Assembly: GCA_024682655.1 (NCBI GenBank)
Contig: JAIKYZ010000065.1
Span: 1-42,186 of the forward strand
Source: Treponema sp.
Lineage (GTDB): Bacteria > Spirochaetota > Spirochaetia > Treponematales > Treponemataceae
Direction of reading: 5' to 3'
DNA: 42,186 nucleotides
Below the pieces are notes generated by a model. The model saw only the letters and a list, made by a program, of their open reading frames with translations, was not told where the DNA came from and did not search any database. This document shows, one piece after another, positions 32,959-42,186 of this stretch (position 1 is the first letter of the stretch; each line of letters opens with the position of its first letter). The position numbers were made by a program, and so were the translations under genes.

Positions 32959-33003
32959 CTTATAAGTATAAATGGATTTAATTGGAGAATTAAGGAGAAT
33001 AAT

Positions 33004-33441
33004 ATGAAAAAACTTTTAATGATATTTGCTATTCTTACAGCTTTTTCTACTGCTTGCCTTTTTGCTCAGGAAAATGAAGGCAATAAAAAGAATGAATCAA
33101 AATGGTCAACTTTGTCTTATGTAAATGTTCCTGTTTATAAGGTTCTTGAAGGTAAAGATGCTTATGTTGTAATTTATCAGAAAAATAAAACTGGAATTGG
33201 AAATGTGGTAATCCCAAAAAAATGGGCACATGGAAATCCTGAAGATCCTAGAAAATTAAAATTCAGAGCTGTAAATACTGCTAATTCTGCTTATCTTACA
33301 GTTGTAAAAAAAGAAGGGGAATTTAAGAGAGTAGTTCTTTCGGTTCCTATGTCAAAATCAAACGGTATCTGGGGACTTGCTGATTATCACAAAGATATTG
33401 AAGGTTCTGATAAAGATACTCTTGAAGAATTAGAGTTATAG
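33004..33441 (+). CDS. Small secreted protein, unknown function
   Basis: The product is 145 residues. A signal peptide (MKKLLMIFAILTAFSTACLFAQ) probably cleaves after LFA. Lipidation at the Cys is less likely because the usual -3 Leu is missing. The mature ~120 residues look beta-rich (VNVPVYKVLEGKDAYVVIYQKN, GNVVIPKKW, AYLTVVKK, RVVLSVPMS), as in a small periplasmic or outer-membrane barrel-like domain. AAGGAG lies before the ATG, a good promoter lies upstream, and a strong terminator follows, so it is a monocistronic, probably well-expressed gene. Confidence 0.78.
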   Translation: MKKLLMIFAILTAFSTACLFAQENEGNKKNESKWSTLSYVNVPVYKVLEGKDAYVVIYQKNKTGIGNVVIPKKWAHGNPEDPRKLKFRAVNTANSAYLTVVKKEGEFKRVVLSVPMSKSNGIWGLADYHKDIEGSDKDTLEELEL

Positions 33442-33460
33442 TTATATTATACAATAAATT

Positions 33461-33490
33461 AAGAGGGCAATTTAAAGCCCTCTTTTTTTT
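33461..33490 (+). terminator. Terminator after the secreted-protein gene
   Basis: AAGAGGGC/GCCCTCTT (33461-33468 with 33477-33484) followed by a run of Ts. nrnA starts 20 nt beyond and so needs read-through or a promoter here. Confidence 0.9.
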
Positions 33491-33509
33491 TGCATGGAGG
33501 AAGATTGAA

Positions 33510-34496
33510 ATGAAAGAAATTACTAAAGATGATTTGCAGAGCCTGAAAGATTTTATTGAGTCTCATGATTTTTTCTTCCTGGCAGGTCATAAAGAACCTG
33601 ATGGAGATTGTATAGCTTCCTGTTTTGGAGTTAAAGGAATCCTTGAACATTTTGGTAAAAAATATCAGATGTTAAATGCAGGACCTTTTAAGAGAAATGA
33701 AATTAAGGCCTTTGAAGATTTTTTCTCGCCAACAATGGAATTTTTGGATGATGAAGAAAGAAAAAAAACTGGTCTGATTATTGTTGACTGTTGTGAAGTT
33801 CCTCGTTTAGGTGATATTGACGGTGATTTTACAGGTCTTGATATTTTTGTAATTGATCATCATAAAACAGCAGGGTTTAGTGAAAATGCAAAAGGTTTTA
33901 TTGATGGAGAAGCTCCAGCCTGTGCTTTTTTAATTCAGCAGTTTTACGAAAATCTTGTTGGCCCTCTTGATAAAGAACTTGCGGATGTTTTATTTTTTGG
34001 ACTTTGTACCGATACCGGTTTCTTTAGATTCTTAAATGATTCTTCTCAGGCCGTATTTGAAGCAGCCGGAAGATTGGTTTCTTACGGAGTTGATCCTAGA
34101 AAAATCTATAATAAAATCAATTCAGGTAAACCTTATTCAACTAGAAAATTGCTTGGAGTTTTACTTGCAAAGGCAGAACGCTTTCTTGAAGGAAAACTTA
34201 TCATCACTTACGAAACCATGGAAGATACAAAACTTTACGGACAGGAGGGAAGAGATTCTGATGCCCTCTACCAGATGTTACTTTCTGTAAAAGATGTTGA
34301 GGCTGTTGTTTTCTTAAGACAGGAAACAGTTTCTTCTTGTACCGGAGGTTTTAGGTCTTTGGATAAGGTTGATGTTTCTGCTGTTGCTTCAAAATTTGGT
34401 GGTGGCGGTCATAAAAACGCTTCTGGAATGAGTTGTAATGGTAGGGTTGAAACTTTAATTCCTCAGATTGTAAAAGAATTTGCTAGAATAATGTAA
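33510..34496 (+). CDS. nrnA: DHH-family phosphoesterase, NrnA-like
   Basis: The product is 328 residues. Motifs: GHKEPDGDCIAS (His27, Asp31, Asp33), VDC (Asp93), IDHHKTAG (Asp116-His117-His118) and the DHHA1 substrate loop GGGGHKNASG (297-306). NrnA enzymes degrade short oligoribonucleotides and can dephosphorylate pAp, using Mn2+. Some relatives hydrolyse the c-di-GMP breakdown product pGpG or c-di-AMP linear forms, so it could finish c-di-GMP turnover here. GGAGG lies before the ATG. Confidence 0.92.
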   Translation: MKEITKDDLQSLKDFIESHDFFFLAGHKEPDGDCIASCFGVKGILEHFGKKYQMLNAGPFKRNEIKAFEDFFSPTMEFLDDEERKKTGLIIVDCCEVPRLGDIDGDFTGLDIFVIDHHKTAGFSENAKGFIDGEAPACAFLIQQFYENLVGPLDKELADVLFFGLCTDTGFFRFLNDSSQAVFEAAGRLVSYGVDPRKIYNKINSGKPYSTRKLLGVLLAKAERFLEGKLIITYETMEDTKLYGQEGRDSDALYQMLLSVKDVEAVVFLRQETVSSCTGGFRSLDKVDVSAVASKFGGGGHKNASGMSCNGRVETLIPQIVKEFARIM

Positions 34497-34519
34497 ATTT
34501 TTTCTAAGATTGAATATAG

Positions 34520-34560
34520 GCCGGGCTTTTAGCGTAATGCAGCTCCGGCAATTTTTTTTT
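34520..34560 (+). terminator. Terminator of nrnA lying inside the 3' end of nrdG
   Basis: GCCGG-GCT and AGCTCCGGC pair (one bulge) around a 13-nt loop and run into nine Ts. The loop and right arm belong to the last codons of the converging nrdG gene. Confidence 0.7.
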
Positions 34561-35278
34561 GCGCTAATTTTATAAGTTCCAGAGCTTCGCTTTCTGTGTA
34601 GGGAGATATTTTATCGTAATTTGGATCCAGGCAGTTTTTATTCATGAACTGGGCAAATTGCCAGCTGGCATCTTGGGGTAAAATTGAGGCAATGTATTCA
34701 ATATCTTCTTTTTCGACCAGGCCAGGAACTAAAACCGTTCTCCATTCCCGATTTTCTGGGGGATATTCTTTTATTAAATCAATAGATTCTTTAAGGACCT
34801 TTTCAAAAAACTCAACTTTCCCGTAAAGGGGAGATTTTTGCCCGCTGATAATACTTGCATATTTTTTTGGCTGGCATTTTATATCCATGGCAATAAAATC
34901 AGGTTTTAATTCCGGGTTTTCGATAAAAGTTTTTAATTTTCCGGGTAGAGTTCCGTTGGTGTCTATTTTTACTTTATAGCCTAATTCTTTGGCCTTTTTG
35001 ATAATTAGAGGAGTGTAGGGATTTAAGAGTGGTTCTCCGCCGCTGATAACAAAGCCCGAAAGTATTCCCTGCCTTTTTTCAAGATGATCAAAAACTTCCT
35101 GAATTGTGTTTAAATTATCCGGCCTTAGATTTTCTAAAACTAACTCTTTATTGTAACAATAGGGACAGCGGATATTACATCCTTTTAGAAAAAAAGAACC
35201 TGCAAGACGTCCGGGGTAATCAACGCAAGTGGTTTTTACCAGAACTCCTGCAGGTCTATTTAATGGTAATTCCTGCAT
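34529..35278 (-). CDS. nrdG: Radical SAM activase of the anaerobic ribonucleotide reductase
   Basis: The product is 249 residues. The radical SAM cluster CNIRCPYC (Cys34, Cys38, Cys41, CxxxCxxC) and SGGEP (79-83) are present. The N-terminus (VKTTCVDYPGRLAGSFFLKGC) is the standard NrdG-type start. It is longer than the ~155-residue E. coli protein and resembles the longer activases of other anaerobes. It would use S-adenosylmethionine and a [4Fe-4S] cluster to place the glycyl radical, here on the separate protein encoded at 35283. It starts 4 nt after that gene stops, so the two are tightly linked. Confidence 0.93.
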   Translation of the reverse strand: MQELPLNRPAGVLVKTTCVDYPGRLAGSFFLKGCNIRCPYCYNKELVLENLRPDNLNTIQEVFDHLEKRQGILSGFVISGGEPLLNPYTPLIIKKAKELGYKVKIDTNGTLPGKLKTFIENPELKPDFIAMDIKCQPKKYASIISGQKSPLYGKVEFFEKVLKESIDLIKEYPPENREWRTVLVPGLVEKEDIEYIASILPQDASWQFAQFMNKNCLDPNYDKISPYTESEALELIKLAQKKIAGAALR

Positions 35279-35282
35279 AAAA

Positions 35283-35846
35283 TTAAGCTTTTTCTGCTAC
35301 TAATTTAAATACACTTTCCAATTCTTCAACATTATGGCAGCGCTTTGTTTCCATTCCATCTGCATTATAAAAAATAACAGTTGGTGATGCACAAACTCCA
35401 TTTTTAGCAGCCTGAGCCAAACCTTCTTCTGTGTCTACATCAATAGACTTTCCTTCCATATCCAAATGAGACATAAAATCTTTTACTGGAGGACAATTTG
35501 GACAGGTTTTTCTTGTATAAAGTTCATAACTTACAGAAGAGTCCTGACAATTAATTTCAAGTGGGCTTTCTTGATTTTCCAGGTCTGTAATTTTTCTTTC
35601 TGCGATTTTTGAAGTCATTTCTGGTTTTTCAGAAAGTTCAAGATCTATACCGCTGTCTTCCAGAGTGAACATTTTTCTCTGATCATATTCATCTCTTTTT
35701 CCAGCGTTCCAGTGTTTTACTGCTCTGTAATATCCAACGATACGAGCGTAAACTTCGGTTTCTGTTCCATGTACATTTTCTAATTCGGCTTTAGTAGCTA
35801 AAATTTCTTTTTCTACCTCTGCCAGATTTCTTTTATTTGCCTGCAT
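35283..35846 (-). CDS. Stand-alone NrdD glycyl-radical domain fused to a glutaredoxin-like domain
   Basis: The product is 187 residues. Residues 1-27 are helical and charged. Residues 28-60 (TETEVYARIVGYYRAVKHWNAGKRDEYDQRKMF) match the extreme C-terminus of class III ribonucleotide reductases, with the predicted glycyl-radical residue Gly38 in RIVGYY. After a linker (61-103), residues ~105-187 form a glutaredoxin/thioredoxin-like domain with CPNC (115-118) and a cis-Pro motif ASPT (153-156). The large NrdD next door lacks this radical motif, so this protein is expected to complete it, and the redoxin half would reduce the active site. It has its own GGGAGGA ribosome-binding site, so it is a true split gene, not a frameshift. 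Confidence 0.85.
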   Translation of the reverse strand: MQANKRNLAEVEKEILATKAELENVHGTETEVYARIVGYYRAVKHWNAGKRDEYDQRKMFTLEDSGIDLELSEKPEMTSKIAERKITDLENQESPLEINCQDSSVSYELYTRKTCPNCPPVKDFMSHLDMEGKSIDVDTEEGLAQAAKNGVCASPTVIFYNADGMETKRCHNVEELESVFKLVAEKA

Positions 35847-35902
35847 CTTTATTAAATCCTCCCGAATTTATTAATTTCTTTTTATAATCTTAATTTAGCA
35901 AT

Positions 35903-38032
35903 TTATTTGTTAGAAGCAAGAATTTTTTCTTTTTCTTCTTCAAGTTTTTGTAATTTTTCTTTTAATGCCTTTTCTTTTTCGGCCTTACATTTTGGACATT
36001 CAAAGTGCTGGCCTGAAATATAGCCGTGAATCTTACAGATTGAATAAGTTGGTGAAATTGTAAAGAAAGGGATTCTGTACTTGTGGGAAATTGTTTTTAC
36101 AAGTTCTGCACAAGCCTTCCAGTCTTTAATTGCTTCTCCCATATAAACATGGAACATTGTTCCACCTGTATATTTTGTCTGCAAAGATTCCTGATGATCC
36201 AAAGCTTCAAAAACATCTGCAGTGTAATCAACTGGCAACTGAGATGAATTTGTATAGAATGGTTCTCTTGTTCCGCTTGTAATGATATCAGGGAACTGTT
36301 CTTTATCGTGTTTTGCAAGACGATAGGAAGTTGATTCTGCAGGTGTTGCTTCAAGATTGAATAAATCTCCGCTTTCTTCCTGATAATCCTGCATTCTTTC
36401 TCTCATATGCTGAAGAACATTTTCGGCAAAGGCTTTACCTTTTGGATCAGAAATATCTACCCCAAGGAAGTTTAGACAACATTCATTCATTCCGCAAAGA
36501 CCGATTGTATTAAAGTGATTTGTTAAAGTTTTAAGGTAACGGCGGGTGTATGGATAAAGTCCACCATCATAAAGTTTTTGAATTACCTTACGTTTAATAC
36601 AAAGACTTTCTTTAGCAAGATCCATTAAATAGTCCAGGCGTTTGTAGAATTGATTTTCGTCTTTTGCAAGGTATGCAATTTGTGGAAGATTGATTGTTAC
36701 AACCCCGATTGAACCTGTAAATTCATCGGCTCCAAAAAGTCCACCGCCACGTCTTCTAAGTTCACGTTTATCAAGCTGTAATCTACAGCACATAGATCTA
36801 ACATCACTTGGATTTAAATCTGAATTAACAAAGTTCTGGAAATTAGGTGTTCCGTATTGAGCTGTCATCTGGAAGAGAAGTTTTGCGTTATCACTGGTCC
36901 AGTCAAAATCTTTTGTGATGTTGTAAGTTGGAATTGGATAAGCAAATCCACGGCCTTCTGCATCACCTTCAATCATGATTTCAATAAAAACCTTGTTTAT
37001 TAAATTCATTTCTTCCTGGCAGTCACCGTAAGTAAAATCCTGTTCTTTTCCGCCAACAATTGCTTTTTTATTTTTTAAATCATCCGGGCAAACCCAGTCC
37101 AAGGTAATATTTGTAAAAGGAGCCTGAGAACCCCAGCGGCTAGGTGTATTAACTCCGTAAACATAACTTTGAATACACTGTCTTACCTGTTTTTCGTTGA
37201 GTTTATCGGTTCTTACAAAAGGGGCCAGATAAGTATCAAAAGAAGAAAAAGCCTGAGCCCCTGCCCATTCGTTTTGTAAAATGCCTAAAAAGTTTACAAT
37301 CTGATTTACAAGGGTAGAAAGGTGAGTTGCAGGTTTTGAGGTAATTTTATCTGGAACTCCGCCAAGTCCTTCTTTAATCAGCTGTCTTAAAGACCAGCCT
37401 GCACAATATCCGCTGAACATAGAAAGATCATGAATATGGAATGCACAAGTCTTGTGGGCTTCGGCAATTTCACTTGAATAAATATTGTCTAGCCAGTAGT
37501 TTGCTGTAATTGTTCCTGAATTGTGTAAAATCAATCCTCCAAGAGAAAAGTTTACATTAGCATTTTCGTGAACACGCCAGTCACTCTGGGCTAAATAACC
37601 GTCCATTGTTTTATTAATGTCCAGCATAAGTTTTTTAGTGTCACGGATTGCTTCATGTCGGGCTCTGTAAAGAATATAAGCCTTTGCAATTTCAACTTCT
37701 TTTTCTTCGATGAGAACACTTTCTACAATGTCTTGAATTTCTTCAATTGCTGGAATTGAATGTGCCCGGCTACCTGCAAGTCGCAATCTTAATTTTTCTT
37801 CAACTAAGTCAGTTAAATGAATTGCCTTATCAGGATCCTTTAATTTTGTTACTGCCTCTATGGCCTTGTTAATAGCTGTTTCGATTTTTGTTCTGTCGTA
37901 GTCAGCAATTACACCAGATCTTTTTACAACAGATTTAATAATTCCCTTTGTTTCTGAATCTGATTTGCTGCCTAAAAAACTTCTCCATTCTGGAAATACA
38001 GATTGTTCAGAAGCTTCTGACTGATTACTCAT
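35903..38032 (-). CDS. nrdD: Anaerobic ribonucleoside-triphosphate reductase, large part
   Basis: About 709 residues from the ATG at 38032. The GTG four codons upstream overlaps the ribosome-binding site GGTGGGGG. Residues ~35-125 are an ATP-cone (VVKRSGVIADYDRTKIETAINKAI...), which gives allosteric overall control. The barrel has HIHDLSMFSGYCAGWSL, GVNTPSRWGSQAPFTNITLDW and the finger-loop region RSMCCRLQLD. The C-terminus has a zinc site Cys666-x-x-His669 and Cys679-x-x-Cys682 (CKIHGY...CPKC). It then ends in a ~27-residue charged helix and stops, without the RVxGY glycyl-radical motif that normally follows. That motif is encoded next, at 35283. It makes dNTPs without oxygen. Confidence 0.93.
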   Translation of the reverse strand: MSNQSEASEQSVFPEWRSFLGSKSDSETKGIIKSVVKRSGVIADYDRTKIETAINKAIEAVTKLKDPDKAIHLTDLVEEKLRLRLAGSRAHSIPAIEEIQDIVESVLIEEKEVEIAKAYILYRARHEAIRDTKKLMLDINKTMDGYLAQSDWRVHENANVNFSLGGLILHNSGTITANYWLDNIYSSEIAEAHKTCAFHIHDLSMFSGYCAGWSLRQLIKEGLGGVPDKITSKPATHLSTLVNQIVNFLGILQNEWAGAQAFSSFDTYLAPFVRTDKLNEKQVRQCIQSYVYGVNTPSRWGSQAPFTNITLDWVCPDDLKNKKAIVGGKEQDFTYGDCQEEMNLINKVFIEIMIEGDAEGRGFAYPIPTYNITKDFDWTSDNAKLLFQMTAQYGTPNFQNFVNSDLNPSDVRSMCCRLQLDKRELRRRGGGLFGADEFTGSIGVVTINLPQIAYLAKDENQFYKRLDYLMDLAKESLCIKRKVIQKLYDGGLYPYTRRYLKTLTNHFNTIGLCGMNECCLNFLGVDISDPKGKAFAENVLQHMRERMQDYQEESGDLFNLEATPAESTSYRLAKHDKEQFPDIITSGTREPFYTNSSQLPVDYTADVFEALDHQESLQTKYTGGTMFHVYMGEAIKDWKACAELVKTISHKYRIPFFTISPTYSICKIHGYISGQHFECPKCKAEKEKALKEKLQKLEEEKEKILASNK

Positions 38033-38073
38033 TTTTTCCCCCACCTTTATGTTATTATATACTCAATTTTTAA

Positions 38074-38550
38074 TTAGTGCGATTCTTTTGAAGAAGTTCG
38101 CTTTAAATTCTTTACTTCTTTTATAAACTCATCAAGATTTTCAAAGTGCCTGTATACAGAAGCGAATCTGATATAAGCAACTTTATCTACCGAGTATAAT
38201 TTTTCCAGAACCAGTTCTCCCAATTCTGCAGTTGGAATCTCTCTTGATTCCTTGGCCTGTTTAATAGCCTCATCTTCAATATCAATACAAAGCTGTTCTA
38301 CCATACTTGTAGATATTGGTCTTTTTTCTAAAGCTCTCTCAATACCTTTTTCCAGTTTTGCTCTTTCAAAAGGTTGTCTTCTACCATCACTTTTTACAAC
38401 CATAAAAGGTTTTTCTTCAATTCTTTCATAGCTTGTGAATCTATAGCCACAGGCCATACATTCGCGTCGACGTCGTATACTTTCGCCATTTGCCATTGTT
38501 CTGGATTCAAGAACTTTGTCATCTAGATTACCACATGACGGACATCTCAT
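38074..38550 (-). CDS. nrdR: NrdR, transcriptional repressor of ribonucleotide reductase genes
   Basis: The product is 158 residues. The N-terminal zinc ribbon has MRCPSCGNLDDKVLESR...RRRRECMACGYRFTSYER (Cys3, Cys6, Cys31, Cys34). An ATP-cone follows (VVKSDGRRQPFERAKLEKGIERAL...). NrdR senses dATP/ATP and binds NrdR boxes upstream of nrd genes. It heads the nrdR-nrdD operon, with nrdD starting ~40 nt downstream, so it probably represses its own operon. A perfect 11-bp inverted repeat precedes it. Confidence 0.96.
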   Translation of the reverse strand: MRCPSCGNLDDKVLESRTMANGESIRRRRECMACGYRFTSYERIEEKPFMVVKSDGRRQPFERAKLEKGIERALEKRPISTSMVEQLCIDIEDEAIKQAKESREIPTAELGELVLEKLYSVDKVAYIRFASVYRHFENLDEFIKEVKNLKRTSSKESH

Positions 38551-38560
38551 AATTTTCCCT

Positions 38561-38591
38561 GAATAATAAAATTGTAGTGTTTTTATTATTC
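38561..38591. promoter_or_regulatory. Inverted repeat in the nrdR leader
   Basis: GAATAATAAAA (38561-38571) is repeated in inverse at 38581-38591 around TTGTAGTGT, between the predicted nrdR transcript start and its ATG. On the minus strand the centre reads ACACTACAA, which half-matches the NrdR box ACACWATATATWGTGT. It may be an operator or a 5' hairpin. Confidence 0.5.
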
Positions 38592-38599
38592 AAGTACCT

Positions 38600-38628
38600 A
38601 TATTAAACGCTAAATGTGGACCTTACAA
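38600..38628 (-). promoter_or_regulatory. Sigma-70 promoter of the nrdR-nrdD operon
   Basis: On the minus strand TTGTAA (38628-38623), 17-nt spacer, TAATAT (38605-38600). Start near 38593 places the inverted repeat directly at the 5' end of the message. Confidence 0.6.
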
Positions 38629-38665
38629 GTGAATTTTGAAAATAATCTTAAAAAAGTTGGAATTT

Positions 38666-40399
38666 TTAAAATTTGATAATTTTTTTGTCTTTAAATACTT
38701 TAAGAAAGTATAAAAGGAATAGAATAAATATTGTCCAAGGCAGCCAGTTTCCAAGTTTTGAGTAGATTGTTGGCATTCTTGAGTAAACTGGAACGTTGTA
38801 CCAGAAAGAATCGGCTGTAAAGAGAGGTAAATCTTTTAAAACCTTGGCTTTTGGATCTAAAACAACAGTATAACCGCCGTTGCAAACCCTAATCATAGGA
38901 GTTCTATATTCAATTGTTCTATAAGAAGAAACTACAAAATGCTGATATTCACTGGATTTTTTATTTGACCAGGAATCGTTTGTAAGATTTACAAAAAGTT
39001 CTGCGCCATTAAGGTAAAGTGGTCTCATAATATCCGGGAAGGCATCATCATAACAGATTGGAGTTGCAATTTTAACAGAGGCTCTTTGATTTTCAATTTT
39101 TTCTTCTTCATTTGCAGTCAGGTTAAGATTTATATTTTTTACAGCTGCTAAGCTTCTGTTTGGCTGATACATTGCAGGTATATCAAAAAGAACATACTGG
39201 TCACCTGGAGTCCATCCGTTTGAAATACCAATCACTTTGTTCATAAAGTTTTTGAGTTTTGGATACTCCATTCCTGGAATTGCTTCTGCAATAGGTACCA
39301 GATGGTTTTTACCGTAAACACCCCGGAAATTACCTTTCTGGTCAAAAACAATAGCAGAGTTGTAATAGATTTTATTTTTTTTGTCTTTTGTATAACTTCC
39401 ACCCGCAACAAGAGGAACTTTATTTTCTTTTATAAATTTAATTAAAGGCCTGTCTTTTGGATTTCTTGAGTAATGGCTATTTGCAGCAGGGAAAGAATAA
39501 CTTAAAGAACCTTCGCTCCATACAATTAAATGGGCCTCTTTTTGCAATTTATCCAGTTCTTTTAATTGATTTTCTGTAAGTTGCTGAGAAATTGTTATTG
39601 ACTGGGCATCGGTTGTAATATCCCAAGGGTCTATATTTTTTTGTACAGCAATAGTTGTAAGAAGTTTTTGTGGCTTTAATTTCTTTAATTCCCAGTATCC
39701 ACCGTGAATTAAAATTACTAAAAACAAAATTCCGGTAAGGCTGGCTGTAATTTTAAGGTCAAATAATTTATTTTTTTCAATTTTTTTCAGGTCTGGAAGA
39801 TTAGCAGCTTCTTCAAGTCCTTCTGCAAAAAGGGCATTTGTTAAGGCAAAAACAAAGGTAATTCCATAAGTGCCGGTGAAGGAAGCAATCTGCATTACGA
39901 TATTCCAGTTATAAATGGCAGTTGAAATTGTTCCCCAGGGATATCCAAGAAAACCACAGGATTTACACCATTCGTAGAGAGTATAAACACAAGCAAAATA
40001 TAAAATCTTAAAGGAAGTTGAATCAAAAAGCTTGTAGCGGTCTTTATTTTTTAATTCTTTGCTTGTGTCTGAATTAGCTGAATAAGGAAAATATAAAAAA
40101 AGTGCCAGACTTGCTCCGATGATTGCTGTTCCTAAAGCTGAGGCTCCCAGGGTTAATGCGGCAAAGTCCTTAAAGTTTGCAAGCCAGTAACTTGAATAAA
40201 GATGGGTACTGCCTGCCTGAAGGAATCCACAGAGATAAGCTTCTTTATAATTTCTACAGGATTTTATTGCAAAGTAATATGGAATAAGGCAAAAAAGTGC
40301 TAAAGCGGCACAACCAAATTTTAAATGTTCATTTGGAATTGCGTATCCAAGGAGTAGACCAGAAAAAACGGAATAAAAAACTTGTAAAATCAAAATCAT
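38666..40399 (-). CDS. lnt: Apolipoprotein N-acyltransferase
   Basis: The product is 577 residues. The N-terminal ~235 residues hold several membrane segments. The C-terminal periplasmic nitrilase-type domain has the catalytic triad Glu296 (VWSEGSLSY), Lys364 (YGKNHLVPIAE) and Cys449 (ICYDDAFPD). A final membrane helix is followed by a basic tail. Lnt N-acylates the terminal Cys of lipoproteins in the inner membrane, the last step of their maturation. At least three other lipoproteins are in this window. No clear ribosome-binding site precedes the ATG. Confidence 0.93.
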   Translation of the reverse strand: MILILQVFYSVFSGLLLGYAIPNEHLKFGCAALALFCLIPYYFAIKSCRNYKEAYLCGFLQAGSTHLYSSYWLANFKDFAALTLGASALGTAIIGASLALFLYFPYSANSDTSKELKNKDRYKLFDSTSFKILYFACVYTLYEWCKSCGFLGYPWGTISTAIYNWNIVMQIASFTGTYGITFVFALTNALFAEGLEEAANLPDLKKIEKNKLFDLKITASLTGILFLVILIHGGYWELKKLKPQKLLTTIAVQKNIDPWDITTDAQSITISQQLTENQLKELDKLQKEAHLIVWSEGSLSYSFPAANSHYSRNPKDRPLIKFIKENKVPLVAGGSYTKDKKNKIYYNSAIVFDQKGNFRGVYGKNHLVPIAEAIPGMEYPKLKNFMNKVIGISNGWTPGDQYVLFDIPAMYQPNRSLAAVKNINLNLTANEEEKIENQRASVKIATPICYDDAFPDIMRPLYLNGAELFVNLTNDSWSNKKSSEYQHFVVSSYRTIEYRTPMIRVCNGGYTVVLDPKAKVLKDLPLFTADSFWYNVPVYSRMPTIYSKLGNWLPWTIFILFLLYFLKVFKDKKIIKF

Positions 40400-40493
40400 T
40401 ATATTATTATTTAAAAAGCGTTATATTTTAAATATAGCGATGATATTTAATAATTTCAATAAATAAAAAAGGTTTTAAGGGGAAATCCAATTT

Positions 40494-41675
40494 ATGAAAG
40501 CGATAAATGATGCGCACGAGTTGGAATATGGAATAAAGCCTGAAGTTATAGCCAAAGCACCGGGGAGATTTCATCTTATAGGAGATCATTCATGGTTCTT
40601 TAAAGATAAAACTTTATCCATGGCTGTGAATTTGACTGTCTATATTGCAATTTCTAAAAGAAGTGACAACAACGTTAAGTTTTACTTCATCCAATTGAAC
40701 GAAAGAAAAAAAGCCAGTGTTTCATCCCTGAAATATAAAAAAGAAGACAGATGGGCTAATAGCCTTAAAGCGGTTTTTTATGGATTTTTATCCTGTGGTT
40801 ATGAGCTTTCTGGTTTAGATATTACAATCTTTAGTCCAATTCCTCCTGCTGCAGGTTTTGGTATAACAAGTGCCATGAAAGCGGCTCTGGTAATTGCAAT
40901 TAAGAAACTTTTTTCTTTTAAGTGTTCAGATGTTCAATTACTTCAAGTCCTGGAAAACGGAAATAGAAACTTCCTTCATGTTCAAAACTACCTTGCCAAT
41001 AACTATTCTGCTTTATTTTCTAAAAAATCTAATTTATTAATCAGTGACTATTCAAAGAGTACCTGGGATTATATTCCTTTTGATTTTGAAGATAAAAAGA
41101 TTCTTCTTGTGGATACAAAAGTACCAAGTCTTTCTGTATGGAACGAAGAATCTATCTGTGAGCCGGAATATGCACTTCTTTTGGGTGATTTAAGGGAAAG
41201 AAAGCCAAATGTATATGGTGGCTGGCAGTACATAAGCGACAAAACAGAAATAAATGAAGTTCTTTCGGTTGTTTCTGAAGAAGTACAGAGAAAGTTAAAA
41301 TCTGTAATGAGGGAACACGGGGATTTACTTGAAGCCAGAGAAGGAATTTTAAATAAAGATTTCTTTAAACTGGCAAGGGCCGTAAACAATAGTCATGAAA
41401 CTATGAGGGATATGTATAATATTTCCTGTCCAGAAATTGACTGGCTTTTAAAAAGAGTTGGAGAACTTGAACCAAATCTTGAAAACACAAGAAATCCTGT
41501 TACCTGTGGAAGAATTACAGGGCATGGTTTTGGTCGCTGTCTTTATGCGATTATCCGTAATTGTGATTATGACAATTTTCTTACAAAACTTACTGAGTTT
41601 GAAAAAATATTTGGTTTTAAACCTGAATGTTATGAAGTTCTTCCTGAAGATGGAGCAACTTTAGTAATAGATTAA
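40494..41675 (+). CDS. Galactokinase-like GHMP-family protein with lost catalytic Asp
   Basis: The product is 393 residues. GHMP motif 1 KAPGRFHLIGDH (21-32) corresponds to APGRVNLIGEH of galactokinase. Motif 2 is PPAAGFGITSA (117-127), with Gly-Ser-Ser replaced. Motif 3 is GRITGHGFGRC (339-349). In galactokinase the base is Asp in GIMDQ. Here the aligned stretch is NYLANNYSALF (165-175), with Ala168 and Asn169 in place of Asp and Gln. It therefore is probably not a normal sugar kinase, and may be a substrate-binding or regulatory relative. AAGGGGA precedes the ATG. surE follows by 36 nt. Confidence 0.8.
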   Translation: MKAINDAHELEYGIKPEVIAKAPGRFHLIGDHSWFFKDKTLSMAVNLTVYIAISKRSDNNVKFYFIQLNERKKASVSSLKYKKEDRWANSLKAVFYGFLSCGYELSGLDITIFSPIPPAAGFGITSAMKAALVIAIKKLFSFKCSDVQLLQVLENGNRNFLHVQNYLANNYSALFSKKSNLLISDYSKSTWDYIPFDFEDKKILLVDTKVPSLSVWNEESICEPEYALLLGDLRERKPNVYGGWQYISDKTEINEVLSVVSEEVQRKLKSVMREHGDLLEAREGILNKDFFKLARAVNNSHETMRDMYNISCPEIDWLLKRVGELEPNLENTRNPVTCGRITGHGFGRCLYAIIRNCDYDNFLTKLTEFEKIFGFKPECYEVLPEDGATLVID

Positions 41676-41711
41676 TTTTCGCATAATAATTTTACTTCAA
41701 AGGATTTATTA

Positions 41712-42186
41712 ATGAATATTTTAGTTACCAATGATGATGGATACGATTCTTCGGGATTACAAACTTTAGTTGATGTTTTATCTAAGGAGCATAAAGTTTA
41801 TGTTCTGGCTCCAGATAGAAATAGAAGTGCTGTATCTAATCATATTACAATGTTTAATGATACTGCCATAACAAAGATTAAGGATAAAGTTTATTCTTGT
41901 CAGGGCTATCCTGCTGATTGTGCCGCCATTGGTCTTACAAGTAATTTATTTGATATAAAATTTGATTTACTGATATCGGGAATTAATCTGGGGGGAAATC
42001 TTGGAACAGATATAGTTTATTCTGGAACCTGTGCAGCCGCAAGACAAGCCGTATTTGATAAGGTCCCGGCAATAGCTTTAAGTATTCAGCCTCTGTCTTA
42101 TAATCAGGGGGAAATTGATTATAAATTTAATACCCTTGCAGAATTTGTTCTAAAAAATCTTGAAGAATTAAAAAAACTTTCTTCAC
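41712..42186 (+). CDS. surE: SurE 5'-nucleotidase, 3' end outside the window
   Basis: The first ~158 codons of an open frame that runs off the window. MNILVTNDDGYDSSGL (metal ligands Asp8 and Asp9), VLAPDRNRSAVSNHIT and SGINLGGNLGTDIVYSGTCAARQA are characteristic of SurE, which removes the phosphate from nucleoside 5'- or 3'-monophosphates and short polyphosphate. AAAGGA lies before the ATG. It is 36 nt after the galactokinase-like gene and is probably cotranscribed. Confidence 0.95.
   Translation, partial: MNILVTNDDGYDSSGLQTLVDVLSKEHKVYVLAPDRNRSAVSNHITMFNDTAITKIKDKVYSCQGYPADCAAIGLTSNLFDIKFDLLISGINLGGNLGTDIVYSGTCAAARQAVFDKVPAIALSIQPLSYNQGEIDYKFNTLAEFVLKNLEELKKLSS

Follow-up and report, generated by a model that had tools for sequence, protein, structure and literature searches.

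Cells need a ribonucleotide reductase (RNR) for their DNA, and oxygen destroys glycyl-radical enzymes, class III RNR among them, at the glycyl loop. The class III RNR of Methanosarcina barkeri reportedly has a dedicated redoxin, an operon-encoded NrdH beside nrdD, as a separate protein that is not joined to the glycyl loop. Within NrdD, the catalytic protein of this class, the NrdDh subclass carries an SCCR motif, or MCCR in NrdDh4 (Aurelius et al. 2015, PMC4493059); sections of that paper report that one member is reducible by thioredoxin and that the T. maritima enzyme needs both CCR cysteines, and one section lists Proteobacteria, Firmicutes, Bacteroidetes, and Thermotogae, without Spirochaetes. 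For glycyl-radical proteins that serve as spare parts, the relevant passages of Andorfer et al. (PMC8683613) count only two validated cases, both for pyruvate formate-lyase, and leave other glycyl-radical enzymes open. Here, we describe a class III RNR from Treponema sp., encoded on a contig of 42,186 nt (JAIKYZ010000065.1, assembly GCA_024682655.1; hereafter "the window," meaning this whole stretch), in which the glycyl-radical loop is found on a second protein fused to a redoxin. We consider it highly probable that this is a two-gene enzyme made of a loop-less NrdD core and a loop-redoxin protein, the chains likely assembling via a helical hairpin into the working reductase.

The core is 709 aa long from its ATG (713 aa from an in-frame GTG) and contains both the ATP cone (PF03477, 67.5 bits) and the NrdD barrel (PF13597, 586.9 bits). 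Its PF13597 match covers positions 1 to 531 of 562, and the remaining positions 532 to 562 are found on the next protein, a chain of 187 aa that matches them at residues 29 to 60 and PF00462 Glutaredoxin at 108 to 151. A preliminary description, made from the sequence alone, had the core end 27 residues after its CPKC pair without a radical motif, and placed that motif and a CPNC domain on the following protein; both statements are borne out by these matches and by the residue numbering, with RIVGYY beginning at residue 35, so that the glycine is Gly38, and CPNC occupying residues 115 to 118. The glycyl loop expected in the same polypeptide of a class III RNR is thus missing from the core and encoded with the enzyme in the adjacent gene, and the radical S-adenosylmethionine (SAM) activase NrdG is represented by a neighboring NrdG2-type gene scoring above the TIGR02495 cut-off. 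In an alignment with T. maritima NrdD, Cys415 and Cys416 of the core's MCCR fall on the CCR motif, and Cys210 falls on Cys125. The core has both features that mark NrdDh4, an MCCR motif (starting at 414) and a Phe at the finger-loop position (GGGLFG, starting at 429), though which Phe is homologous is uncertain, as it is in PMC4493059. Judged by motif, the core belongs to the NrdDh subclass, and since the MCCR type and the three aligned cysteines are in keeping with reduction by a redoxin, we infer that this core uses one.

The second protein has the CxxC, the cis-Pro position and, in its predicted model, the thioredoxin fold that mark the thioredoxin/glutaredoxin superfamily, and it is a stand-alone glycyl-radical domain (GRD) as in the GrcA/YfiD spare parts, here with a redoxin (GRD-redoxin). 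An alignment of 29 GRD-redoxin proteins shows no variation in RIVGYY, in either CxxC cysteine, or in the proline at the cis-Pro position (the fragmentary L023, which has masked bases in its GRD gene, and L024 were left out, and L034 and L038 were also excluded). The same holds for the glycyl loop, the CxxC, and the cis-Pro position in a second alignment of 63 selected rows. The preliminary description had thought the redoxin fusion unusual, a claim that did not survive: 572 database proteins match this C terminus, and among the 120 single-chain matches listed, all carry CxxC behind the loop and 111 start the glycyl motif 12 residues after the start of CPxC. Single-chain NrdD-GRD-redoxin proteins are therefore common, the fusion was rejected as a novelty, and it is the position of the cut that is unusual.

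The preliminary description had proposed that the same split be sought across genomes and placed on the NrdD tree. Among 60 genomes (the window's own and 59 related ones), the split form is present in 33; used as a query, the 187-aa chain matched 36 of the 59 relatives. Of the 30 loci analyzed, one of them the window's, 27 have the core, GRD-redoxin, and nrdG2 genes as direct neighbors; the exceptions are L011 and L024, which are truncated where their contigs end, and L033, which is taken up below. Core and GRD genes are separate in the 28 other genomes of these loci and also in named strains of T. bryantii, T. porcinum, T. socranskii, and T. lecithinolyticum, and the conserved gene order together with the invariant residues excludes chance. 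A database search returned 1317 proteins, and the best 80 loci of a GTDB contig scan were all titled Treponema or other spirochaetes, including the four species above and T. vincentii. The complete genome of T. vincentii OMZ 806 (L116, genome G204) holds the GRD-redoxin-nrdG2 pair approximately 168 kb from a core that is read in two overlapping frames, while the genome with L118 has core and GRD on different contigs; both genomes also encode a PF02867 RNR. Long open frames that the genome search offered as fusions were rejected as in-frame neighbors seemingly chained across stops, L164 being two genes. Elsewhere, a short frame at G016:C31:8921-9697 (L039), containing an NrdD piece only, stands beside a redoxin-like piece and is perhaps a decayed split RNR.

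The gap between the two genes is 56 nt, which is not a multiple of 3, so they lie in different frames, and GGGAGG stands 11 nt before the ATG of the GRD-redoxin gene; together with the retention of the split in relatives, this supports the earlier view that the second gene has its own ribosome-binding site, at least a sequence resembling one, and that the break is no frameshift. The cut sits between the zinc knuckle and the glycyl loop, with extra residues of helix-like pattern on both sides. Positions 8, 12, and 15 of the core tail are hydrophobic in 87 of 87 distinct tails, which were selected by pattern, and the N-terminal helix of the GRD passed a hydrophobic-moment test against shuffles (z 14.1). 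In some single-chain relatives, a helical insert separates the zinc knuckle from the loop, whereas in the split proteins helices of this kind are distributed over the two chains, which places the break at the tip of a hairpin. Both helices are present in the single-chain protein P0135, joined by a short turn (679 to 705 and 708 to 727 in its model, block-mean predicted local distance difference test [pLDDT] 92 to 97); the model superposes on T4 NrdD 1h7b over residues 157 to 748 at 2.2 Å, and Gly741 coincides with T4 Gly580, provided no gap intervenes. In the fused L035, the same glycyl loop follows directly behind CPxC. The conserved pattern and the homologue with both helices make it plausible that the helices on the two sides of the break pair, as had been suggested at the outset.

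Besides the split enzyme, 13 of the 33 split-bearing genomes have another NrdD, 12 have a PF02867 (class I/II) RNR, and 8 have neither; the other NrdD carries a TGA near its end in G009 (G009:C43:50803-52633) and is in two pieces in G032. Neither another PF13597 enzyme nor a PF02867 match was found in the eight (G007, G008, G011, G014, G018, G028, G033, and G056), which are drafts of 76 to 99% completeness. T. bryantii XBD1002 (G206), very probably the same genome as G014 among these eight, has the split pair with no other NrdD, PF02867, or TIGR02505 match, and TIGR02505 (class II RTPR) matched none of the nine genomes (the eight and G206), in a search whose control gave matches in 8 of 14 genomes but above the cut-off in just 1. 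Given that a cell needs an RNR, these genomic absences suggest that the split enzyme most likely works. Several points weigh against this conclusion and against a two-gene enzyme in general, beginning with the draft state of the genomes and the modest control just given. The window's genome, a 2.74-Mb draft in 151 contigs, encodes a second, full-length NrdD of 720 aa with a GCR motif (L001:1153-3315), so the split enzyme there need not be essential; an nrdG-like frame, seen by eye, follows and overlaps that gene, and the protein is of the E. coli-like GCR subgroup, whose members use formate. Such a second nrdD had been named beforehand as grounds for refutation, and one is indeed present, but it falls in another subgroup, and eight relatives have the split with no other RNR found. 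L033 has no NrdG2 match beside its split pair, and the hydrophobic moment of the core tail is not above that of shuffles (z -3.5). In the P0135 model, pLDDT is 78 to 86 for the glycyl loop and about 60 for the MCCR loop (411 to 414), values too low for the Gly-Cys distance to be judged from it. Lastly, the case for the redoxin's role in this enzyme consists of the fusion and the subtype, and many stand-alone loops have no redoxin.

Such loops came to light in a survey of 150 genomes of the phylum, 81 of which gave a PF13597 match. Among the 29 best-scoring new loci (L120 to L148), a ranking that favors full-length chains, the split occurs in 16 of 22 CCR-type cores compared to 0 of 7 GCR-type cores, all single chains; judged by frame length, 8 of the 16 split CCR-type loci encode the loop as a small protein that has no redoxin. 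Stand-alone loops in other genomes of the phylum are 46 to 74 aa long (16 aligned), and cores of this type are without the CPxC pair (mostly CPxxH) and without the helical tail. G113, G135, and G138 each have three stand-alone loops per single core (L152 to L160), and 20 proteins encoded near the extra GRDs share no theme, 10 of them having no Pfam match at 1e-5. Two loops of this set adjoin a conjugation (TrbI) or anti-restriction (ArdC) gene; in L153 and L163, from two genomes, a solo loop lies between the end of a class I tRNA synthetase gene and a phosphomethylpyrimidine kinase gene, with no nrd genes in the stretch.

Short database matches to the loop number at least 7988, gene fragments included, and extend to viruses. 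Of the best 80 matches on IMG/VR viral contigs (L175 to L254), 64 lie in short frames of 42 to 185 aa, and for 63 of these the flanking sequence retrieved, at most 3 kb, shows no core. We selected 38 of the 80 viral records and searched them whole: 32, chosen for a solo loop, are without any core, 5 hold a full NrdD, and 1 holds a core and a separate loop, although viral records are often fragments and may include misassigned host DNA. In two of the 32 (G224 and G241), the match extends upstream across stops into the knuckle region, and these loops are possibly decayed NrdD. With one stand-alone loop as the query, isolate phages and plasmids gave 2 and 6 records, respectively, several being annotated NrdD genes; phage nrdD genes interrupted by introns or inteins are known, as passages of PMC3653736 and PMC12363816 describe. 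An integrase or helicase gene adjoins three viral solo loops, and by eye, L182, L188, L224, and L243 have an N-terminal helix-like stretch as in Treponema, and L206, L209, L225, and L231 have cysteine pairs of their own. No paper on a stand-alone NrdD glycyl domain was recognized in the literature searched, a search that left most subscription literature outside.

The evolutionary history of the split was examined on a tree of 75 of 218 cores, near-identical ones removed, with labels set by hand for L115 and L119 (masked or cut), L138, L140, L142, L150, and L172. At least eight changes between split and fused states are needed on this careful core tree, and six on a quick tree. A single origin of the split redoxin form was rejected on the core tree, the redoxin-type splits not forming one clade (approximately unbiased test, p-AU 0.008). 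Stand-alone-loop splits are distant from the redoxin-type ones and lie beside single-chain cores without redoxin. The fusions with a helical insert form one starred clade next to a split lineage, a position compatible with their being ancestral to the split or with their having re-fused.

A two-chain RNR of this kind could have arisen by plain gene fission, leaving a permanent complex that acts like an ordinary NrdD and a split without function of its own. We regard this as a genuine possibility that falls somewhat short of our own leaning: most loci keep the genes adjacent and in a single order, conservation extends to the helix-like segments by which the chains would be held together, and the repeated changes on both trees are what neutral fission and fusion would give, but core and GRD are unlinked in two genomes, three genomes have three stand-alone GRDs per core, GRDs occur alone on viral contigs, and in the sampled loci the split is confined to CCR-type cores. 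That the break is instead a sequencing error, frameshift, or pseudogene of the window's genome, as its many contigs might allow, has a negligible chance of being right given the separate genes in the relatives named above, the ribosome-binding-site-like sequence, and the conserved residues; a sequencing error joining the frames, foreseen in the preliminary description as a refutation, is thereby ruled out.

The full-length NrdD of the window's genome also invites the explanation that GRD-redoxin repairs this second enzyme after oxygen damage, as YfiD/GrcA does for pyruvate formate-lyase, a precedent for which a wider role is speculated in part of PMC8683613. We consider this very unlikely, because no full-length NrdD match accompanies the split pair in eight related genomes, and because the full-length protein belongs to the GCR subtype and differs in its C terminus. 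The preliminary description had itself likened the second protein to YfiD/GrcA; the resemblance holds for the stand-alone glycyl-radical domain, but not for repair, since the neighboring core lacks a loop that could be mended and is no full-length enzyme. For the CPNC domain, a redox-sensing role or another client in place of the NrdD active site seems improbable. The many stand-alone GRDs that lack it show that a loop can do without; against this, CxxC stands behind the loop in every single-chain match listed, and, according to a section of PMC4493059, a characterized member of the subclass accepts thioredoxin.

On the minus strand of the window the genes run nrdR, nrdD core, GRD-redoxin, and nrdG2 (Table 1), and NrdR is likewise upstream in L045, L067, L068, L105, L117, L135, and L139. 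By eye, the cluster is flanked by an apolipoprotein N-acyltransferase-like gene (38666-40399) and a DHH-phosphoesterase-like gene (33510-34496). A scan of positions 33000-42186 against Rfam gave no match at the gathering threshold.

Table 1. Features of the split class III RNR locus in the window
Feature	Position	Strand	Evidence or detail
nrdR regulator, upstream of nrdD	38074..38550	-	TIGR00244, 184.4 bits
nrdD core lacking the glycyl-radical loop, 709 aa (ATP cone, NrdD barrel, zinc knuckle, helix at C terminus)	35903..38032	-	PF03477; PF13597 1-531/562; PRK08270, 1083.6 bits
MCCR motif, Cys415/Cys416 (with Cys210, putative catalytic cysteines of the redoxin-dependent NrdDh subtype)	36782..36793	-	Alignment to T. 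maritima NrdD 4coi; motif from a section of PMC4493059
Zinc knuckle, C666-x2-H669 ... C679-x2-C682	35987..36037	-	Residues read from sequence; putative zinc binding
C-terminal tail of NrdD core, 27 aa, predicted docking helix	35906..35986	-	Hydrophobic pattern; helix in model of single-chain homologue
GGGAGG, ribosome-binding-site-like, of GRD-redoxin gene	35858..35863	-	Read from sequence
GRD-redoxin subunit, 187 aa	35283..35846	-	Domain matches and alignment
N-terminal amphipathic helix of GRD-redoxin, residues 8-23	35778..35825	-	AlphaFold model m3d8bd8e751bd; heptad pattern, moment z 14.1
Glycyl-radical loop, RIVGYY, PF13597 532-562 (residues 29-60)	35667..35762	-	Gly38 codon 35733-35735
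Thioredoxin-fold domain, residues 105-187; Pro155 at cis-Pro position	35286..35534	-	CPNC 115-118 = 35493-35504
nrdG2-type radical SAM activase, 249 aa	34529..35278	-	TIGR02495 NrdG2, 138.9 bits (cut-off 131.15)

For the two-gene enzyme, we propose that NrdG2 would place the radical on Gly38, and that the loop would dock where a single-chain NrdD has it, would by analogy enter the barrel, and would generate a thiyl radical on the MCCR loop, after which thiyl radical chemistry and reduction would proceed as in NrdDh, where they have been studied in relatives. The tethered CPNC domain, instead of formate, would then re-reduce the active-site disulfide after turnover. In P. copri NrdD, the loop domain is too dynamic to be seen with dATP, and its authors expect largely rigid-body behavior, according to parts of PMC11226230; a chain cut at the hinge of such a mobile domain would turn the domain into a subunit. 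With the loop as a separate small protein, a cleaved subunit could be swapped without rebuilding the core, so that in our boldest proposal the oxygen-cleaved small subunit would be exchanged and the core of approximately 80 kDa kept. The radical-plus-reductant subunit is thus predicted to dock and is perhaps replaceable.

In this system, an enzyme needed for DNA has its radical loop on a separate protein, in T. bryantii XBD1002 with no other RNR found, and a sole split RNR in a named strain makes the spare-part question directly testable. The presumed radical carrier and electron donor share one polypeptide, and with the enzyme in two pieces, the passage of a radical from one chain to the other could be followed. 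Phage-borne loops, if working, would be a new phage means to keep deoxynucleoside triphosphate synthesis running.

Among known systems, the enzyme is closest to NrdDh of T. maritima and N. bacilliformis (MCCR being NrdDh4), with which it shares the PF13597 barrel, the CCR motif, a glycyl loop of the same sequence type, and an NrdG-type activase, but the members shown in sections of PMC4493059 carry the loop in the same chain, whereas here it is a second protein. Single-chain NrdD-GRD-redoxin fusions (for example, P0122 and P0145) have the same modules in the same order, but in one polypeptide. YfiD/GrcA and phage T4 Y06I, as treated in passages of PMC8683613, also place a stand-alone glycyl-radical domain on a small protein, and on a phage as well; YfiD, however, repairs a full-length enzyme, while the Treponema protein carries a redoxin and accompanies a core without its own loop. 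The split class II RNR NrdJab of Pseudomonas aeruginosa likewise separates the catalytic chain from the C-terminal part, in the portions of PMC4520616 and PMC9669993 that describe it, but is B12-dependent and uses no glycyl radical.

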